A DNA stretch of 18,766 nucleotides from positions 1 to 18,766 of the forward strand of contig PMIG01000285.1 of NCBI GenBank assembly GCA_003157055.1, read 5' to 3'. The notes below the pieces were generated by a model. The model ran no database searches. It had not been told where the DNA came from and saw only the letters and a program-made list of their open reading frames with translations. Both the position numbers and the translations under genes were made by a program. Each line of letters begins with the position of its first letter. The stretch's first letter is position 1. Positions 2,250 to 18,278 of the stretch are shown one piece after another. This DNA comes from Bacteroidales bacterium. GTDB lineage: Bacteria > Bacteroidota > Bacteroidia > Bacteroidales > VadinHA17.

Positions 2250-3275
2250 ATGGAATATATTCCCATCAGCAAACTGGGGAAATACGGCCTAATCGATCAT
2301 CTTTCAGCGGGCTTTACTCCGATAAACAAGAGTACTGTAAACGGGATCGGGAACGACGCTTCTGTCATATATTCAGGAGATAAATATACCCTGGTTTCGA
2401 CCGATCTTATGCTTGAAGGGATCCATTTTAACCTTGTATATTTTCCCCTGAAGCACCTCGGCTACAAATCTGTTATAAGGGGAATATCCGACATCTATGC
2501 CATGAACGGCACTCCGGGTCAGATCCTGATCGGGCTCGGGATAAGCTCAAGATTCTCGTCAGATCAGGTCGATGAGATATATGGAGGAATTAATCTTGCC
2601 TGCAATAAATATGGAGTTGATCTCGCAGGCGGAGACATAACAAGTTCGCTTACCGGACTTACGATAAGCGTCACTGCGGTCGGATATGCCGAAAAGGATA
2701 GTCTTGTAAGAAGGGATGGCGCCAGACCTAACGACCTTATTTGCATAACCGGCGATTTAGGAGCTTCCTACATGGGACTTCAGCTGCTTGAAAGGGAACG
2801 ACTGATCTTTGAAAAGAACAAGGGCATCCAGCCTGATCTCGCAGGCAATGATTATGTAATAGGACGGCAGCTGAAACCTGAATTTCCCGCCGCTGTGCTC
2901 TCAGATCTGAAAGAAGCAGGTATACATCCCGGATCAATGATTGATGTAACAGATGGACTTGCTTCGGACCTCATGCAGATTTGCAAGGCTTCAGGTACCG
3001 GCTGCAGGATATTCAACAAACAGATCCCGATTGACTATGAAACCTCACGGCTGGCTGAGGAATTTAATATTGATCCCCTGATCCCTGCCATGAACGGAGG
3101 TGATGACTTTGAGTTGCTCTTCACTGTTCCGATTGAAATGTACGAAAAAGTGAAAGAGATAGCTTCTGTGAAGATAATCGGTCATATTACTGAAAAAGGT
3201 TCCGGCAACTACCTTGTAGGAGATGAAGGAACTGAGGTTGAGATAATGGCCCAGGGCTGGAGCCGGGAAAAATAA
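2250..3275 (+). CDS. thiL: Thiamine-monophosphate kinase ThiL
   Basis: A cytosolic enzyme of 341 residues that phosphorylates thiamine monophosphate to thiamine diphosphate using ATP and Mg2+, the last step of cofactor synthesis. It belongs to the PurM/SelD ATP-binding superfamily. Visible motifs are GIGNDASV (32-39), STDLMLEGIHF (50-60, metal-binding Asp and substrate region), SDIYAMNG (80-87), GGD (127-129), TGDLG (168-172), IDVTDGLASDL (231-241) and NGGDDFELLFT (282-292). Length is normal for the family and no key motif is missing. It starts 3 bases after the yccF-like stop, so it is the last gene of that operon; no other thiamine gene is in the window. Transcription ends at the shared hairpin after its stop. 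Confidence 0.93.
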   Translation: MEYIPISKLGKYGLIDHLSAGFTPINKSTVNGIGNDASVIYSGDKYTLVSTDLMLEGIHFNLVYFPLKHLGYKSVIRGISDIYAMNGTPGQILIGLGISSRFSSDQVDEIYGGINLACNKYGVDLAGGDITSSLTGLTISVTAVGYAEKDSLVRRDGARPNDLICITGDLGASYMGLQLLERERLIFEKNKGIQPDLAGNDYVIGRQLKPEFPAAVLSDLKEAGIHPGSMIDVTDGLASDLMQICKASGTGCRIFNKQIPIDYETSRLAEEFNIDPLIPAMNGGDDFELLFTVPIEMYEKVKEIASVKIIGHITEKGSGNYLVGDEGTEVEIMAQGWSREK

Positions 3276-3276
3276 A

Positions 3277-3300
3277 AAAGGGACCTATCTGGGTCCTTTT
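3277..3300. terminator. Bidirectional terminator shared by thiL and lpxA
   Basis: The arms GGGACC (3280-3285) and GGTCCT (3292-3297), extended by A-runs on the left and T-runs on the right, form a hairpin of about 9 bp with one G-U pair. Read rightward it ends in TTTT just after thiL; read leftward it ends in a run of T. The lpxA stop codon (TAG, reverse complement of 3285-3287) and its last sense codons lie inside the hairpin, so one element serves both converging operons. Confidence 0.8.
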
Positions 3301-4061
3301 ATTACGCCTCTTTGTGAATTCCTGATGAAATCAATTATATAATCCCTTTCAGGAGTTGGTTCGAATTCTTTTTCAATCTTTTCCAGTGCCTGTGTAAAAT
3401 TAAGCTTGCTCTGGTAAATAACCCTGTAAATATTATGTATCTCGTCAATTTTCTCTTTGACGAATCCTCTTCTTGCAAGACCCACCGTATTGAGTCCCAT
3501 ATAACACAAGGGATCCCTGTCTGCGAGAATATATGGCGGAACATCGATTCGTATTTTACAGCCTCCGCCTATAAAAGCATGCGCGCCGATTCTTGCGAAC
3601 TGGTGGACAAGCGTTCCTGCAGAGATTATAGCCCAGTCGTGAACCTTAACTTCTCCTGCCAGTCCGGTCGAGTTTCCCATAATGCAGTTGTTCCCTAATG
3701 CACAATCGTGCCCTATGTGCGAGTATGCCATCAGGAGACAGTTCTCTCCAACGATTGTCTTTCCAACGGCAGCTGTACCCCTGTTCACCGTAGATCCCTC
3801 TCTGACAGTTGTCCTGTCGCCTAATTCAGCAGTGGTTTCCTCGCCTTTGAATTTAAGATCCTGTGGAATTCCTGAAACAACTGCCGAAGGAAATATCCTG
3901 CAGTTTTTCCCGATCCTTGCACCATCCATAACGGTTGCATTGGGGCCGATCCATGTTCCATCTCCTATGGTTACATTGCCCGCAATATAAGCGAATGGTT
4001 CAACTGTTACATTTTCGCCTAGTTTTGCATCCGGATGAATAAACGCTGATTTTGAGATCAT
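3285..4061 (-). CDS. lpxA: UDP-N-acetylglucosamine acyltransferase LpxA
   Basis: A protein of 258 residues catalysing the first step of lipid A synthesis, transfer of a 3-hydroxyacyl chain from ACP to the 3-OH of UDP-GlcNAc, in the cytosol. Residues 5-190 are hexapeptide repeats forming a left-handed beta helix (many IG-D/E-xxx turns). The catalytic histidine is H118 in AYSHIGHDC, aligned with H125 of E. coli. VHQF (152-155), DVPPY and the NTVGLARRGF segment before the C-terminal helices are also family features. The helical C-terminal region (about 195-258) is complete. It starts 5 bases after the lpxC-fabZ stop, so it is the last gene of the lipid A operon. E. coli H144 (LAGHVSV) corresponds to Glu137 here. 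Confidence 0.93.
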   Translation of the reverse strand: MISKSAFIHPDAKLGENVTVEPFAYIAGNVTIGDGTWIGPNATVMDGARIGKNCRIFPSAVVSGIPQDLKFKGEETTAELGDRTTVREGSTVNRGTAAVGKTIVGENCLLMAYSHIGHDCALGNNCIMGNSTGLAGEVKVHDWAIISAGTLVHQFARIGAHAFIGGGCKIRIDVPPYILADRDPLCYMGLNTVGLARRGFVKEKIDEIHNIYRVIYQSKLNFTQALEKIEKEFEPTPERDYIIDFIRNSQRGVIKGPR

Positions 4062-4066
4062 TGCAA

Positions 4067-5461
4067 CTATTTATTTTTAATTACCTGGGCAGTCATTTCT
4101 CCTTCCACAACCAGGGTATTGCCGACAAAAGCTTGTCCATACATTGCCACTATTCCTCTTCTCATGGGTTCAATCAATTCCATCTTTAGAATTACCGAAT
4201 CGCCGGGAACAACTTTATGCTTGAATTTAAGCTTATCTATTTTCAGGAAATAAGTTGAATATTTTTCAGGATCTTTAACACCGCTCAGAACCAGTAGCCC
4301 GCCGCACTGTGCCAGGGCCTCAACGAGCAGAACGCCAGGCATTACAGGTTCGTCAGGAAAATGGCCTTGAAAGAATGGCTCATTGATTGTGACATTTTTA
4401 ATCCCGACAACAGTGGTTTCATCAAGGTAAATAAGCTTATCGACCATCAGGAAAGGAAACCTGTGAGGAAGCCGCTTTTTTATATCTTCCACGGTAAAAA
4501 CAGGCGGCTGTGAAGGATCATAGATGGGGATGCTTCGTTTTGAAGAGGCCTTTTTCATCTCCTGCCTCATAAGCTTTGCAAGCCTTGTATTTGCGTAATG
4601 GCCAGGACGGGTAGCAACAACTTTCCCCTTTATAGGATGGCCGACGAGTGCAAGGTCACCCATGATATCGAGAAGCTTGTGCCTTGCTGGTTCGTTGGGA
4701 TAAATTAATTCGGTATTATTGAGCACACCTGCAGTATGAGTGCTTATTCCTGGTCTGTTGAAAAGCTTGGCAATACGGTCTATTTCTGACTGATCAACTT
4801 CCTTATCGAGGATCACGATAGCATTGTCAAGATCACCTCCTTTGATCAGCCCCATCTTAAAAAGGGGTTCAAGCTCGTGAAAGAAGACGAATGTACGGCT
4901 TCTGCAAATTTCTTCCTCGAAATCATCAATCGAGTCGAGAATTGCATATTGATTTCCAAGTATTTTTGAATTATAGTCGATAAGAACGTTAATGCTCAGG
5001 TGGTCGTCGGGGTAGACGATCAGATCGACGCCGTGCTCTTCGTCGGAGAATACGATTTTCTGCTTAACGACAAAATAGTTGCGGTCTTCCTTAAGATCGA
5101 CGATTCCTGCTTCCTTGATTGCCTTGACAAAAGCCCATGCAGATCCACCCATTATAGGTGCCTCCTGGGCATTCATTTCTATCAGCGCATTATCGACGCG
5201 AAGACCATGAAGGGCTGCAAGCGCATGTTCAATAGTCGACACTGAAGCATTATTCTGAACAAGGGTTGTTCCCCTTGAAGTATCAGTGACGTTTTCAGCC
5301 AGTGCATCGATGACGGGTTTGCCAGGAAGGTCGACCCGGCAGAATTTATATCCGTGGTTTGCCGGTGCCGGCTTGAAGGTGATAGTAACATTGACCCCGG
5401 TATGCAATCCCTTTCCATTCAGACTTATCTCCCTGGCCAGTGTCCTCTGTTTTTCGCTCAT
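4067..5461 (-). CDS. lpxC/fabZ: Bifunctional LpxC deacetylase / FabZ hydroxyacyl-ACP dehydratase
   Basis: A fusion protein of 464 residues. The LpxC part (about 1-310) is the zinc deacetylase that commits UDP-acyl-GlcNAc to lipid A. E78 and H79 (STIEHAL), H261 and D265 (ARHKLLDIMGD) and H275 (VGHP) match its catalytic and zinc residues. The FabZ part (about 322-464) dehydrates 3-hydroxyacyl-ACP in fatty-acid elongation; LPHRFPFLMVD (331-341), QGHFPDEPVMPG (365-376, catalytic H367) and LVEALAQ (379-385, catalytic E381) are intact. FabZ competes with LpxA for 3-hydroxyacyl-ACP, so the fusion fixes the ratio of LpxC to FabZ. This fusion is known in Bacteroidota and Chlorobi. The ATG follows a 119-base gap after lpxD that may hold an internal promoter. 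Confidence 0.95.
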   Translation of the reverse strand: MSEKQRTLAREISLNGKGLHTGVNVTITFKPAPANHGYKFCRVDLPGKPVIDALAENVTDTSRGTTLVQNNASVSTIEHALAALHGLRVDNALIEMNAQEAPIMGGSAWAFVKAIKEAGIVDLKEDRNYFVVKQKIVFSDEEHGVDLIVYPDDHLSINVLIDYNSKILGNQYAILDSIDDFEEEICRSRTFVFFHELEPLFKMGLIKGGDLDNAIVILDKEVDQSEIDRIAKLFNRPGISTHTAGVLNNTELIYPNEPARHKLLDIMGDLALVGHPIKGKVVATRPGHYANTRLAKLMRQEMKKASSKRSIPIYDPSQPPVFTVEDIKKRLPHRFPFLMVDKLIYLDETTVVGIKNVTINEPFFQGHFPDEPVMPGVLLVEALAQCGGLLVLSGVKDPEKYSTYFLKIDKLKFKHKVVPGDSVILKMELIEPMRRGIVAMYGQAFVGNTLVVEGEMTAQVIKNK

Positions 5462-5500
5462 CAGTTAAAATGTTTGATAGAATTTTGGGTACAAAAAAAA

Positions 5501-5508
5501 CAAAAATA
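5501..5508 (-). promoter_or_regulatory. Possible internal promoter -7 box before lpxC-fabZ
   Basis: Read on the minus strand, 5508-5501 is TATTTTTG, an exact match to the Bacteroidota -7 consensus TAnnTTTG, about 40 bases before the lpxC-fabZ ATG in the only sizeable gap of the lipid A operon. No good -33 TTTG is seen at the usual spacing, so support is partial. Confidence 0.35.
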
Positions 5509-5580
5509 ATCCGAACAAGCTAAAAAAACAGCTTTTAAGTCTATTAATACCAACCTCTTTAGCCTGAACCTTATTCTATT

Positions 5581-6618
5581 CTACTGTTTTTTAAAGGATT
5601 CTATTTCCTTTTCCAGCGCATCGACTTTTATCTTCAGCTCCGGCAATTTCTTGAATACTATAGAGCACCTTAGAAAATCCCTATGGTCGAAGGCAGGATA
5701 TCCAAGTAAAATCGAATTCTCTTTCTTGACATCGCTTGGGATGCCTGACTGGGCTCCGATTTTAGTTCCGTCGGCTATCTTAATGTGACCAGCTATGCCA
5801 ACCTGACCACCGAACATGCAGTTCTTACCAACTTTCGTGGAACCTGATATTCCGGTTTGCGCTGCCATAACCGTATTTTCTCCTATTTCGACATTATGGG
5901 CTATCTGGATCAGGTTATCGAGCTTCACCCCCCTGCGGATTATGGTCGATCCCATCGTGGCCCTATCGATAGTGACATTAGCGCCTATCTCTACATGATC
6001 TTCAATAACAACATTACCAATTTGAGGTATTTTCATAAATTCATTTTCAGACTGAGGAGCGAAGCCAAACCCGTCGCTTCCGATCACACTCCCGGCATGA
6101 ATAATAACTCCTTCGCCAAGAATACACTCATGATATATCTTTACACCCGGATTCAGTGTGGAGCCGTTTCCCACTTTTGAATTGTCGCCGATATAAACAT
6201 GAGGATAAACAGAACAGTTGTCTCCTAAAACACAATTCTCGCCTATATATGCGTATGCTCCTATATATGCGCCCTCTCCAATTTTTGCAGAAGGCTCAAT
6301 AATAGCGGTAGGATGAATCCCTTTCTTCCTGGGTTTTGACTGTTCGACAAGCTGGAGAAGGGAGGCAAATGCATCATAGGCATTTTCAACTTTGATAAGT
6401 GTGGCTTCCACTTTTGATGTAGGAACAAAGCTTTTGTTCACCAGCACAACAGATGACTTTGTCGAATAGATGTAATGTTCATATTTGGGGTTGGCAAGAA
6501 ATGAAAGTGCGCCCTCACGTCCTTCCTCAATTTTCGCTATGGTATTGACGACCTTGCCGGGATCGCCTTCGACTTCGCCTTTCAGGAAGCCGGCTATTGC
6601 TGCTGCTGTAAATTCCAT
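5581..6618 (-). CDS. lpxD: UDP-3-O-acyl-glucosamine N-acyltransferase LpxD
   Basis: A protein of 345 residues that adds the second 3-hydroxyacyl chain, at the 2-amino group of UDP-3-O-acyl-glucosamine, after LpxC has acted. Residues 1-95 are the N-terminal uridine-binding domain (typical [11 protein letters not shown] at 36-46). Residues about 100-300 are hexapeptide repeats, with the catalytic H241 in [12 protein letters not shown] and the SDGFGFAP loop at 181-188. Residues 318-345 are a charged C-terminal helix that likely extends the trimer. It starts 16 bases after the HD-domain gene and precedes lpxC-fabZ; its product acts after LpxC, so gene order is not pathway order. Confidence 0.95.
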
Positions 6619-10138: not shown

Positions 10139-11218
10139 ATGGACAAAACACCGGGATTATTAGCGCCGGCTCTGGTGTATGTATTGATATTTATTTTAAA
10201 TATCATATTACCAGGCAAATGGATAACCGGATATGTGACTAAAACAGATTCCAATGAAAAAATGAGATACCATCTTAATGGTTTCTCCGTGTTCCTTGTA
10301 GTTGTTTTAATATGGTTTTTACTGGGATATTTTAATATTGTCCCATTTGACTGGCTCTATACATGCAGATGGTATGGATTGACGGGCGCATGTACCCTTG
10401 GCGCCATTTTTACCCTGGCTGTCATATTGCCTTATCCCCCTGTAAGAAAGTCGATCGTATCAGATATATTTTTAGGCAGGAAAGAAAATATTCAGTTTTG
10501 GAAAGGAAGAGTAGATGTGAAAATGTGGCTCTATCTTGCAGGAGCGACTATGCTGGAACTGAATGCATTAAGCTTCACGGCGCATCACCGGTTTCTGTTT
10601 GGAGATCAGGCTTCGACCGGCATCTTTCTTTCAACTGTGTTACTTACATACTTCATCGTTGATTATTTTACTTTTGAAAAAGTCCATTTGTACACTTATG
10701 ATTTATTTGCTGAAAGAGTCGGATTCAAACTGGGCTGGGGGTGCATAGTCTTTTATCCTTACTTTTATTCAGTCTTCTTATGGTCTACTGCAGAATTGCC
10801 CGATCCACATACTCCTGTCTGGAAATTAGCTGTATATATTCTAATATTCTTTACCGGCTGGGTGCTATCCCGAGGTGCTAATTTGCAAAAGTATTATTTC
10901 AAAATAAATCCTGAAAGACCATTCCTGTGGATAGTGCCGGAAACAATTACGGATGGCAATAATACGCTGCTGGTAAACGGGTTCTGGGGTATCAGCAGGC
11001 ACATTAATTATCTGGGCGAAATATTAATGGCGACTGGTATCATCCTTTGTATAGGATATCCGGGGTTGATATGGCCCTGGTTATATCCTTTGTACTATGT
11101 CATCCTCTTATTTTCGCGCCAGAAAGATGATGATAACCGGTGCGCTGTCAAATACGGGGAGCTATGGAAAACCTATGTAAAAAAAGTTCCCCACCGTATT
11201 GTTCCATTTGTTTATTAA
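10139..11218 (+). CDS. ERG4/ERG24-family sterol reductase homologue
   Basis: A polytopic membrane protein of 359 residues with about 9-10 hydrophobic segments. It has the landmarks of sterol delta-14/delta-7 reductases in order: YHLNGF (44-49), a G(R)xDxK segment (RVDVKMW, 124-130), LGWGCIVFYPYFYS (198-211), SRGANLQK (244-251), LLVNGFWGISRHINYLGE (277-294) and the C-terminal KYGELWKTYVKKVPHRI (338-354). In the family these surround the NADPH and sterol sites. Known enzymes reduce sterol double bonds with NADPH; the same fold covers ICMT-like methyltransferases. It is short for the family (eukaryotic forms exceed 400), and the usual RPG after DxK appears as LAG (134-136). The substrate here is unknown: no sterol-synthesis gene (squalene epoxidase, oxidosqualene cyclase) is in the window. 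It is co-transcribed with the small helical gene. Confidence 0.85.
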   Translation: MDKTPGLLAPALVYVLIFILNIILPGKWITGYVTKTDSNEKMRYHLNGFSVFLVVVLIWFLLGYFNIVPFDWLYTCRWYGLTGACTLGAIFTLAVILPYPPVRKSIVSDIFLGRKENIQFWKGRVDVKMWLYLAGATMLELNALSFTAHHRFLFGDQASTGIFLSTVLLTYFIVDYFTFEKVHLYTYDLFAERVGFKLGWGCIVFYPYFYSVFLWSTAELPDPHTPVWKLAVYILIFFTGWVLSRGANLQKYYFKINPERPFLWIVPETITDGNNTLLVNGFWGISRHINYLGEILMATGIILCIGYPGLIWPWLYPLYYVILLFSRQKDDDNRCAVKYGELWKTYVKKVPHRIVPFVY

Positions 11219-15171: not shown

Positions 15172-15202
15172 TTGCCTTGTCTGCGATTCTATAATAACTT
15201 TG
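15172..15202 (+). promoter_or_regulatory. Promoter of the CrtC-like / membrane-fusion operon
   Basis: TTG at 15172-15174, a 20-base spacer, and TAACTTTG at 15195-15202, which matches the Bacteroidota consensus (TTTG, 19-21 bases, TAnnTTTG) nearly perfectly. The transcript should start around 15208-15210. This is the best promoter match I found in the window. Confidence 0.6.
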
Positions 15203-16072
15203 ATAATATTAAATATTTTCACTTGCAGTATCGATGCTGGATATTTTAGTGTACTAAAGAAAGTATTAAAAGTCTTTATTATAAGGCAAGCTGGTTTTAA
15301 AATAGAAAAACTGTATATCGATTGCATTGACGATCGGGGAAATTGCTTTATCCTCTACTGGGCAAAGGTGAAATTCTTTCTGCTGAGGATCATTTATTCA
15401 GGACTTGTATTCTCTGACGCCGATGGTCTGACAATTGAAAAATCAACATTAAGAAAGACCATTAAGCCGGTAATCAACGGGGGAATAAATTTTAAAAATA
15501 AATTTCTGAAAACCAGTGTTAGTCTGAAGAGAATTGACGATCCGATTACAAGGTCGCTATATAAGGAAAATGAAAACAATGAATTAATCTGGAACTGCCA
15601 TCATCCCAAAGCTCTGGCTGAAATAAACTACAATGGCCGCATTTATAAAGGTTATGGGTATTCTGAAACACTTTTCTGCCCGATAAACCCTCTTAAATTG
15701 CCGATGGAAGAACTGAAGTGGGGCCGCTTTTTATCTGATTCGCATACGGTGATCTGGATAAACTGGAAGGATGATCAACCTCTGAATAAAATATTCATGA
15801 ATGGCACCGAATATAATGATGCTGTTTTCAATAATGAGACAATATATTTTAATGATGGAAAGTACAAACTTACTTTTTCAGAGATCCGGTCAATAAGGAA
15901 CAACAAGCTTTCCGGGTTATTTTCAAAAATGAAATTCATGAAAATATTCTTTAAAAGCAGGCTCCTGAATTCACTTGAAAAAAAATATAAGGCAAAAACA
16001 ATCCTTTCCGAAAATTCTCTCTTCTTATCAGATGGCTGGTCATTATTTGAAACTGTAACATGGAGAAAATAA
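15200..16072 (+). CDS. CrtC-like (carotenoid 1,2-hydratase/lipocalin-like) protein
   Basis: The frame gives up to 290 residues and probably a beta-rich soluble protein. Family-like landmarks: LYIDCIDDRGNCFILYWAKV (38-57), WNCHHPKA (131-138), GYGYSE (151-156), LKWGRF (172-177), VIWINW (184-189), FMNG (199-202) and GWSLFETVTW (279-288). This pattern resembles the two-lobed CrtC/AttH-type fold that includes carotenoid 1,2-hydratases, but the match is from memory and the reaction is unknown. The start is unclear: the only in-frame ATG/GTG/TTG upstream of the conserved part is TTG 15200, which overlaps the -7 box, so a non-standard start (ATT or CTG between about 15278 and 15310) is likely. It is A/T-rich compared with its neighbours. 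The last 13 bases overlap the next gene, so translation is coupled. Confidence 0.6.
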   Translation: MIILNIFTCSIDAGYFSVLKKVLKVFIIRQAGFKIEKLYIDCIDDRGNCFILYWAKVKFFLLRIIYSGLVFSDADGLTIEKSTLRKTIKPVINGGINFKNKFLKTSVSLKRIDDPITRSLYKENENNELIWNCHHPKALAEINYNGRIYKGYGYSETLFCPINPLKLPMEELKWGRFLSDSHTVIWINWKDDQPLNKIFMNGTEYNDAVFNNETIYFNDGKYKLTFSEIRSIRNNKLSGLFSKMKFMKIFFKSRLLNSLEKKYKAKTILSENSLFLSDGWSLFETVTWRK

Positions 16073-17997
16073 AAGAAATATCAGGTAAGGTTCTTTATGG
16101 GTTACTGTTTGCTGTCCTGATCCCCATTATTCTCATTTTCTGGGCAAAGCATACCCATGATGTTGTTACGCTGCCACTGCCTGATAAATTACTCTTCGGA
16201 TGGATACCATTGATCACGGGAGTAATATTTATCTGCTCCGGCATATGGAGCCTCTGGCACTCGGGCAAGGGATTGCCTATGAATGCTTTTCCGCCAGAAA
16301 AATTTGTAAAAAATGGCCTTTATGCATTTACAAGACATCCCATTTATCTGGGTGCGGCGCTGGTAAGCTTTGGATTGTCGGCTGTCGCACAATCGGCATC
16401 AGGATTCTGGCTGGTAAGCCCCGTATTCTCGCTGTTGATGGTAGCTTATGTCGCAGGATTCGAAAATGAAAAAACGGAGTCGCTCTTTGGTCCACAGGAT
16501 TATAAACCCTTCCTGTCATTGCCCGATGCTTCCGAAATTTCACCATCATTTGCTGATAGATTATCATCATACTTTCTTGTTTTTTTACCATGGCTGATCG
16601 TTTACGAGGCCTTCATATTTATCGGAGCCTCCAAGGATGCAATCATCACCAATCTTCCCTTTGAGAAGCGACTGCCTGTATGGGAATTTTCAGAAGTGTT
16701 CTATGCCTTTACCTACCTGTTTGTTTTATCTGTACCATTTGTGATAAGAACAAGGAAGCAACTAAGGAGCTTTACTACCGACATATGGTTTGCAATAATC
16801 ATTGTTGGGATCATTTACCTGGTATTCCCGATGGTGGTAAAACAAAGGGATTTTATTCCTCATTCATTCATCGGCCGATTCATATTGTTTGAACGATCCA
16901 TTGATGGTGAAGCTTGCGCGTTGCCATCTTTTCATGTGATACTGGCGTTCGTAGCCGCAACATATTTCGGGAGGAGCTTTGTCCGCTATAAGTGGATATG
17001 GTATCTCCTGGCAGCAGTTATCTCGTTGAGCTGCATAATGACCGGAGCTCATTCAATTCCGGATGTCGTTGCAGGCTTTATCACTTACATAATAATTATT
17101 TGCAGGCAGCGAATATGGAACTTTATACGGAAGCAGGCTGAACGACTTTCAAACAGCTGGCGGGAATGGAGAGTTGGCCCGGTAAGAATAATTAATCATG
17201 GCTTCTACGGCGGAGCGGCGGGATTTATAGGAACGCTGCTGACCGGCTGTTTTCTCGGCCGGCAGTATGCTCTTGTCTGCTTTGCAATCATGGTATGTGT
17301 CATTATCGGAGCCGGACTCTGGGCACAGATGATTGAAGGATCACCGAAATTACTGAGACCATACGGCTATTATGGAGGACTAGCCGGAGGAATTCTTGCA
17401 TGTGTAATTGCGCATTTTGTTTTTTCAATTGACCTTTTCATCTTGCTTGCATCCTTTGCTATGTCAGCACCGTGGATCCAGGCAACAGGACGACTACGAT
17501 GCCTTGTTCAGGGATGCTGTCACGGAAGGCCTTCTAATGAGAATATCGGGATACACTTTACACATCCCAATTCGCGGGTTAACAAAATATCAGGTATGGC
17601 CGGTGTTCCGCTTCACCCGACACAACTATATTCAATAGGTACAAATATTATAACAGGGCTGGTTCTGATCAGGTTATTCAGCATGGGGATATCCGCCTCT
17701 TTAATCATCGGAATATATTTTATACTTAACGGGACGGGAAGGTTTGTCGAAGAATCATTCCGCGGTGAAGCTCAGACACCATACTGGAAAGGGATGAGGA
17801 TATATCAGTGGATAGCAATAATAAATATCCTGATTGGAATAATCTTTACTACTGTACCAAATACCGGAATACTGATATTTCAGCCCAATTTTTCGTCATT
17901 CATCGCAGCAATCGGAGTAGCAATACTGATTACTATTGCGTCGGGAGTTGATTTCCCGGAGTCAAATCGGAGGTTTGCACGATTGACCAGTAATTAA
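16060..17997 (+). CDS. ICMT-like methyltransferase / PAP2 phosphatase / Lgt-like transferase fusion
   Basis: A polytopic inner-membrane protein of 645 residues, about 15 hydrophobic segments, with three modules. Residues 1-155 match the ICMT/PEMT-type methyltransferase fold: NGLYAFTRHPIYLG (85-98) and E137 in ENEK, followed by a short charged tail. Residues about 165-350 are a PAP2 lipid phosphatase: PSFH (289-292) and TGAHSIPDVVAG (328-339), giving H292, nucleophile H331 and D335; the first PAP2 motif is atypical. Residues about 375-605 resemble prolipoprotein diacylglyceryl transferase (Lgt): GRLRCLVQGCCHGRPS (477-492), LHPTQLYS (518-525) and GRFVEESFRGE (560-570). The combined reaction is unknown: a lipid methylated, dephosphorylated and transferred or remodelled is one reading. 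It starts inside the 3' end of the CrtC-like gene. Confidence 0.82.
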   Translation: MEKIKEISGKVLYGLLFAVLIPIILIFWAKHTHDVVTLPLPDKLLFGWIPLITGVIFICSGIWSLWHSGKGLPMNAFPPEKFVKNGLYAFTRHPIYLGAALVSFGLSAVAQSASGFWLVSPVFSLLMVAYVAGFENEKTESLFGPQDYKPFLSLPDASEISPSFADRLSSYFLVFLPWLIVYEAFIFIGASKDAIITNLPFEKRLPVWEFSEVFYAFTYLFVLSVPFVIRTRKQLRSFTTDIWFAIIIVGIIYLVFPMVVKQRDFIPHSFIGRFILFERSIDGEACALPSFHVILAFVAATYFGRSFVRYKWIWYLLAAVISLSCIMTGAHSIPDVVAGFITYIIIICRQRIWNFIRKQAERLSNSWREWRVGPVRIINHGFYGGAAGFIGTLLTGCFLGRQYALVCFAIMVCVIIGAGLWAQMIEGSPKLLRPYGYYGGLAGGILACVIAHFVFSIDLFILLASFAMSAPWIQATGRLRCLVQGCCHGRPSNENIGIHFTHPNSRVNKISGMAGVPLHPTQLYSIGTNIITGLVLIRLFSMGISASLIIGIYFILNGTGRFVEESFRGEAQTPYWKGMRIYQWIAIINILIGIIFTTVPNTGILIFQPNFSSFIAAIGVAILITIASGVDFPESNRRFARLTSN

Positions 17998-18278
17998 TAG
18001 TGCCTTGTAATCGTGCAATCAAGAAGATATGGTTATCAGGCGTCAGGAGTCAGGTGAGTTAATCACTAACCCAGGGCTTCAGCCCGGGGTATGCAATATT
18101 ATGTTACAATCAGGCTTTAGCCCTCACTTCTTCCTTCGTATCGGCTCCGCTCGGTTAAGACTAATTAGCTTTCAGATTATTATTAGCTATCTTTATACAA
18201 AATATGTCAAGAAATATCTGCTGCTAAAAAAAGTTAAGTCATTGTATTTAAAAACATAATCACTAATAAAAAGAAAAA
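17998..18278. other. Intergenic region with REP-like palindromes
   Basis: No gene is supported between the fusion gene and the SPFH gene. The region carries ATCGTGCA-ATCAAGAA (18009-18024), the palindromes at 18070-18122, and an A/T-rich run before the SPFH ATG. TATCTTTA (18188-18195) is a weak -7 candidate for that gene. Confidence 0.4.
18070..18122. repeat. REP-like palindromic repeats
   Basis: The hairpin CCCAGGGCT-TC-AGCCCGGGG (18070-18089) has 8 pairs and one A-G mismatch. It is followed, 23 bases on, by a second short palindrome GGCT-TT-AGCC (18113-18122). The pattern recalls intergenic palindromes of Bacteroidota that are associated with REP-type transposases; no transposase is in this window. 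Confidence 0.55.

Follow-up and report, generated by a model that had tools for sequence, protein, structure and literature searches.

A methyltransferase, PAP2 and Lgt-like fusion and its CrtC-fold partner: a candidate lipid-tailoring module with a predicted inverted Lgt fold

The fusion gene and its partner

The window analysed here is a stretch of 18,766 nucleotides, contig PMIG01000285.1 (C214) of a fragmented Bacteroidales genome assembly (GCA_003157055.1; 398 contigs, 78 per cent complete). Its forward strand carries two genes that form the subject of this report: one encodes a membrane protein in which a methyltransferase, a PAP2_3 and an Lgt-like domain are joined, and the other, directly upstream, encodes a soluble partner (Table 1). 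The start of the fusion overlaps the end of the partner gene by 13 bp. No stop interrupts the 645 codons of the fusion, for which 18 membrane helices are predicted (4 + 6 + 8 in the three domains).

Table 1. Positions of the two genes and of their domains and motifs in the window
Feature	Position	Strand	Basis
Partner, soluble protein of ~260 aa, CrtC/AttH-type fold, without Pfam family	15200..16072	+	open reading frame (ORF), model, linkage
Fusion, methyltransferase - PAP2_3 - Lgt-like, 645 aa	16060..17997	+	ORF, motifs, Pfam, model
PEMT/DUF1295-type methyltransferase domain (putative), residues 1-160	16060..16539	+	Pfam
RHPIYLG motif, residues 92-98	16333..16353	+	motif, 50-fusion alignment
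PAP2_3 domain, residues 164-347	16549..17100	+	Pfam, model
PAP2 C2 motif PSFH, residues 289-292	16924..16935	+	motif, alignment
PAP2 C3 motif H331...D335	17050..17064	+	motif, alignment
Positive linker, residues 348-379 (helix + beta hairpin), predicted cytosolic	17101..17196	+	model, charge
Lgt-like domain with an additional membrane helix (residues 380-629); orientation predicted to be opposite to that of E. coli Lgt	17197..17946	+	model, alignment, charge
GRLRCLVQGCCHG signature, residues 477-489; R478 is the counterpart of catalytic Arg143 in E. coli Lgt	17488..17526	+	
HPTQLY, residues 519-524	17614..17631	+	motif, alignment
GRFVEESFRGE, residues 560-570; R561, E565, R568 correspond to Arg239, Glu243, Arg246 of E. 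coli Lgt	17737..17769	+	
Family-specific C-terminal tail, positive, predicted cytosolic	17947..17994	+	alignment, charge

The initial annotation had read this frame as three membrane-lipid enzyme modules on one polypeptide, and Pfam bears this out: in the window protein PEMT (PF04191; residues 45-144, 30.8 bits against a cut-off of 25), DUF1295 (residues 16-138, 30.5 against 20.4), PAP2_3 (PF14378; residues 210-347, 36.9 against 27) and LGT (PF01790; residues 437-597, 75.6 against 24.9) all exceed their cut-offs. Searched separately, each third matches its own kind of family exclusively. The plain PAP2 family stays under its cut-off (23.7 versus 27.2 bits), as does ICMT (PF04140; 18.7 versus 24 bits for the whole protein, 23.0 with the third cut out), so that the original label “ICMT-like” is a loose one. 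The sole NCBIfam match of note, to the Lgt equivalog NF000778, scores 74.4 bits against a cut-off of 334. Among 50 diverse fusions, PEMT is found in 50, LGT in 49 and PAP2_3 in 46, as counted at E≤0.001 and not by Pfam cut-off.

The motifs lie at the positions first given for them, the C3 motif of PAP2 falling within TGAHSIPDV (residues 328-336). In the alignment of 50 fusions, P94, Y96 and E135 of the putative methyltransferase, assigned as such by Pfam, are invariant and H93 is kept in 46, while the His-His-Asp triad of PAP2 is intact in the window protein and in 46 of the 50. A joint loss of His93 and PAP2 was considered and rejected, as the losses fall in different members. Structure prediction, which had been proposed as a check, recovered the fold of the Lgt part; the listed structural matches include no solved ICMT/PEMT structure and barely cover the methyltransferase part of the model.

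A word-based search, in which 7997 candidates were scored out of a larger number, returned at least 2915 homologues at E≤0.001. Among the matches listed, 118 of 120 (one being the window's own protein) have lengths of 600-670 aa, and the same three Pfam groups appear across them. The gene is under purifying selection: against relative L004, the ratio of nonsynonymous to synonymous substitution rates (dN/dS) is 0.12 for the whole fusion (Lgt part, 0.05; methyltransferase, 0.23; PAP2, 0.17) and 0.17 for the partner, and against L006 it is 0.11 and 0.16, respectively; against L012, synonymous changes are saturated and the ratio is not computable for most parts. A sequencing or assembly frameshift had been raised at the outset as a possible origin of the fusion, and a chimeric assembly would have the same effect. 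Both are excluded because of the homologue lengths, with the purifying selection and the recurrence of the architecture in five phyla speaking against them as well.

The partner gene is an addition to the initial annotation. Its conserved core spans 15284-16066, and its start is uncertain (the candidates being TTG at 15200 and a less common start codon near 15280). At 63 of the 65 related loci where the contig holds the place, a partner is present, and fusion and partner distances correlate (r 0.85 over 37 loci), a value reached in 0 of 1000 permutations. The model has the fold of CrtC, AttH and 25-phosphosteroid lyase, with decalin-forming Diels-Alderases heading its list of structural matches. 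We considered membership in PF07143 and rejected it: the fold is shared, but sequence gives no support, with no meaningful Pfam match, and none to PF07143, in 32 partner members, and an hhalign probability of 4 per cent over 14 columns in a profile comparison (15 of 20 fetched members).

Predicted orientation and site residues of the Lgt-like domain

The second addition is a reversed charge pattern in the Lgt-like domain. Helix ends were taken from the model, loops were assigned to alternating faces, and Lys and Arg residues were counted on each face. In the fusions, the signature face of the Lgt part (signature, head loop and the loop between transmembrane helices 6 and 7) has a mean of 11.0 such residues against 1.2 on the opposite face, and it is the richer of the two in every one of the 50. 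Canonical Lgt gives 5.1 versus 11.5, with the signature face richer in none of 15, and standalone GCC-type proteins from several phyla give 5.8 versus 11.7, with the signature face richer in one of six; this sole exception carries an Arg-rich N-terminal extension. The count reads correctly for real Lgt, because in the published E. coli structure the periplasmic face is described as negative and the cytoplasmic one as positive. Counted alone, the methyltransferase and PAP2 halves have 13.3 inside versus 4.7 outside in 50 of 50 fusions, and the linker helix (residues 349-364; mean hydropathy -0.2) is too polar for a membrane span; on these two grounds the linker is placed in the cytosol. Two relatives that lack PAP2 share the bias (11 versus 3 and 13 versus 2).

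Given the reversed charge and the independent count from the other two domains, the Lgt-like site is predicted to face the cytosol, and an inverted domain is the most likely arrangement on the modelled topology. The periplasm-facing site of Lgt is thus not what is predicted for the fusion, and the SAM (S-adenosylmethionine) site and the soluble partner would share the cytosolic side with the Lgt-like site while the PAP2 site faces out. It weakens this conclusion that all 15 canonical controls belong to the window's own phylum.

The residues of the site are partly retained and partly replaced. Equivalences with E. coli Lgt (numbering as given in PMC4728403) were drawn through the signature motif and by aligning the fusions with the normal Lgt of this genome, rather than with E. 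coli Lgt, and that of Tyr26 rests on our own alignment. The equivalents of Arg143, Arg239, Glu243 and Arg246 are kept (R478 in 50 of 50 fusions, R561 in 49, E565 in 50 and R568 in 50); in the genome's normal Lgt the Arg246 position is occupied by Lys. The equivalents of Tyr26 and Glu151, mutants of which are reported as inactive in E. coli Lgt (PMC4728403), are His and Cys, respectively, each in 49 of 50. The name Lgt given to this module therefore holds for the fold, but two residues required in the E. coli enzyme are replaced. C481, C487, H488 and, in the C-terminal tail, D631 and P633 do not vary among the 50 fusions, and C486 is missing from just one. Profile searches for solved relatives with the fusion and partner alignments gave chance matches only, so that Lgt itself was not reached by that route.

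Other LGT-family proteins were seen in passing. Several Bacteroidota genomes (G135, G140, G144 and others) have a second, weaker family member beside their normal Lgt, and at locus L007 a second Lgt-like protein (2915-4744, + strand; 609 aa; LGT 59.9 bits) lies directly upstream of the pair, with a C-terminal half that resembles an outer-membrane beta-barrel by eye.

Distribution, variants and neighbouring genes

A scan of named genomes yielded 85 relatives, of which the best 80 were kept; 72 of these (L004-L075) are fusions, pieces of fusions or, in one case (L074), a form that lacks PAP2, and the remaining eight are mainly single-domain Lgt-like proteins. Recurrence in other genomes, named at the outset as support, is seen in five phyla with the same domain order: Bacteroidota, Acidobacteriota, Verrucomicrobiota, Planctomycetota and Pseudomonadota (alpha, beta and gamma). 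Methyltransferase-Lgt fusions without PAP2 occur in a Tissierellia bin (L074; 459 aa) and as a divergent protein of genome G495 (L109; 554 aa). The PAP2 triad is lost in L059, L060 and L068, which form one clade (support 100/100), and in L064, the split L058, L116 and L066. On the tree, proteins from Neisseriaceae and Cardiobacteriaceae fall among Bacteroidota, where they group with the flavobacterium Paenimyroides (100/100), and the distribution of phyla needs eight changes against a minimum of four, a pattern compatible with some horizontal transfer. In Paenimyroides tangerinum the module is present on two scaffolds (L022, L023) with the same set of neighbours in the fetched stretch; either the module was truly duplicated or the assembly holds one copy twice. 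Broken pieces of the fusion are seen in genome G048 (contigs C16 and C166) and a decayed partner remnant beside the intact fusion of L005, and the module is therefore undergoing loss in some relatives.

The pair mostly stands alone: by simple ORF calling, a same-strand gene lies <80 bp upstream at 24 of 60 loci and downstream at 16 of 61, and promoters and terminators around the pair were fewer than in shuffled sequence. L060 has the order partner, ABC ATPase, permease, fusion, sulfotransferase, the permease being called from a sub-cut-off ABC2 match (24.3 versus 31.6 bits) and its position behind the ATPase; L059, L064 and L068 have parts of this order, and in L058 partner and fusion are not separated by ABC genes. 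At L073, a sulfotransferase and an APS kinase are encoded on the opposite strand. L109 has the order partner, P450, methyltransferase-Lgt fusion, ABC ATPase and a permease homologue, the last without an ABC match in Pfam. Sulfotransferase, ABC and P450 neighbours point to a product that is small and lipid-like and may be decorated further and exported. A radical SAM gene also adjoins the ABC/sulfotransferase version (L060, 13033-14094, with a SPASM domain; L068, 6712-7575). As for an anti-phage defence system, PADLOC-DB has no model matching either fusion or partner, and this candidate was rejected. Plasmid carriage was rejected likewise, as a search of the plasmid collection with the fusion alone gave no match.

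Elsewhere in the window, 10139-11218 (+) encodes a 359-aa ERG4/ERG24 family protein of the sterol-reductase type (148.8 bits in Pfam), surprising in such a genome, with an SDR gene nearby on the opposite strand. A run of genes at 3285-6618 (-) resembles what we take to be lpxA, an lpxC-fabZ fusion (464 aa) and lpxD. Between the fusion and an SPFH/Band 7 gene, 18069-18160 looks by eye like a GC-rich palindrome; a repeat search of this stretch found none.

Proposed function and comparison with known systems

Architecture, conservation, linkage to the partner, the folds of the partner and the Lgt part, kept and lost residues and charge inversion are direct results of computation. From these we infer the orientation and a chemistry that faces the cytosol, and we read the pair, at close to an even chance, as a two-gene lipid-tailoring module that would make a glycerolipid, probably a methylated one, on the cytosolic face. 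In such a module the methyltransferase and Lgt-like sites would open to the cytosol and the PAP2 site to the periplasm. The Lgt-like domain would take a glycerophospholipid of the inner leaflet (phosphatidylglycerol, by analogy with Lgt), with the Arg478/Arg561 pair holding its phosphate, and would transfer diacylglyceryl not to an exported prolipoprotein but to a small acceptor in the cytosol. On that face the soluble partner, with its CrtC fold, may synthesise or present the hydrophobic acceptor or product, the methyltransferase domain would add a methyl group from SAM, and the optional PAP2_3 domain might remove or transfer a phosphate group on the outer face. The acceptor, the order of steps and the product are guesses. 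Processive modification of a single substrate, which the initial annotation had suggested, is a possible mode of action; a strict line of three steps is disfavoured by the members that have lost the PAP2 triad and the two that lack the domain, and by the charge pattern, which puts the PAP2 site opposite the other two.

The strongest rival, unlikely but of some weight, takes its lead from the activities of the partner's fold relatives and makes the substrate a prenyl lipid (quinone, polyprenol or terpenoid): the partner would hydrate, dehydrate or cyclise the prenyl chain, the methyltransferase methylate the head, PAP2 remove a prenyl phosphate and the Lgt-like domain join the glycerolipid. The partner fold leaves the substrate unfixed, however, because Diels-Alderases that form decalins head its match list, and no prenyl-pathway gene recurs in the neighbour clusters, where few genes are annotated. 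Improbable, in our estimate, is a lipoprotein enzyme of another kind, in which a periplasm-facing Lgt-like domain lipidates special exported cysteine proteins and the methyltransferase caps the cysteine, as ICMT does on prenylcysteine. The LGT score above cut-off and the retained Arg143, Arg239, Glu243 and Arg246 equivalents fit such an enzyme, as does the precedent of a dedicated Lgt-like enzyme proposed for MYXO-CTERM proteins (PMC11980579). It is the weaker of these two alternatives because of orientation and replaced residues: the charge bias is reversed throughout, the linker helix is too polar to supply the added span, Tyr26 and Glu151 are replaced, and the same genome also encodes a normal Lgt.

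A further reading, quite doubtful, denies the Lgt-like part any transferase role: a metal or cofactor would be bound by the Cys-Cys-His cluster (C481, C486, C487, H488), and the fusion would serve to sense or flip lipids or as a scaffold for the methyltransferase. The near-complete conservation of the cluster would suit this, but all six standalone relatives examined carry the three cysteines, which are thus not special to the fusion; moreover, the arginine-glutamate core of Lgt is kept, and the Lgt part has the lowest dN/dS of the three domains in the comparison with L004. That the gene is an artefact or in decay has a negligible chance: the broken G048 copies and the L005 remnant are in its favour, but full-length homologues in many genomes and the low dN/dS of the window gene are against it.

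Database names follow single thirds of the fusion (Ste14, membrane-associated phospholipid phosphatase, prolipoprotein diacylglyceryl transferase). The individual domains are known, and the combination is present in databases under such partial names. The initial annotation knew of no characterised enzyme of this kind; database entries do exist. Among the papers listed by searches of open-access PMC full text, none is on the domain architecture or on an inverted Lgt, and within these searches the predicted inversion and the near-constant CrtC-fold partner are undescribed. As naming goes by one third, counts of the lipoprotein pathway may be taking in proteins whose product is probably not a lipoprotein. 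Should the inversion hold true, Lgt would be one more fold that occurs in both membrane orientations, and its chemistry could also take place in contact with the cytosol. The close link to a soluble protein whose fold is one of unusual carbon chemistry would be a small two-gene route to a lipid in five phyla. The broadest version of this reading, which we hold tentatively and with less than even confidence, is that an inverted Lgt fold, acting as an inner-leaflet transferase on cytosolic acceptors and tied to a methyltransferase and a CrtC-fold partner, constitutes an undescribed, horizontally spread pathway to a new class of methylated glycerolipids or lipid natural products, to which one clade might add sulfation and export.

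Each part of the module has known relatives from which it departs. The first domain is like the PEMT/DUF1295/ICMT-type methyltransferases in its PEMT match, its RHPxYxG-type motif and its invariant Glu135, but has GxGLPMNAFPP before the motif in nearly all fusions. The PAP2_3 lipid phosphotransferases (Aur1, IPC synthase, SMS-related protein) and LpxE differ in that the domain is fused here, and in that some fusion lineages have lost its triad or the domain itself. The partner shares the CrtC/AttH/Fsa2/25-phosphosteroid lyase fold at only 6-12 per cent sequence identity. Compared with Lgt (PF01790; E. coli 5azb), the Lgt-like part sits behind two enzymes and has an extra C-terminal membrane helix; the equivalents of Tyr26, Asn146 and Glu151 and the arm-2 His are replaced; and the charge bias, hence the predicted orientation, is reversed. 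The standalone Lgt-like proteins (L077, L079-L083; GRxGCxxxGCCYG signature) share the Cys481/Cys486/Cys487 pattern and HPTQLY with the fusion, but they consist of a single LGT domain with Tyr at the Tyr26 position and, in five of six, the normal charge bias, and R433, E564, T573, D631 and P633 are invariants specific to the fusion.
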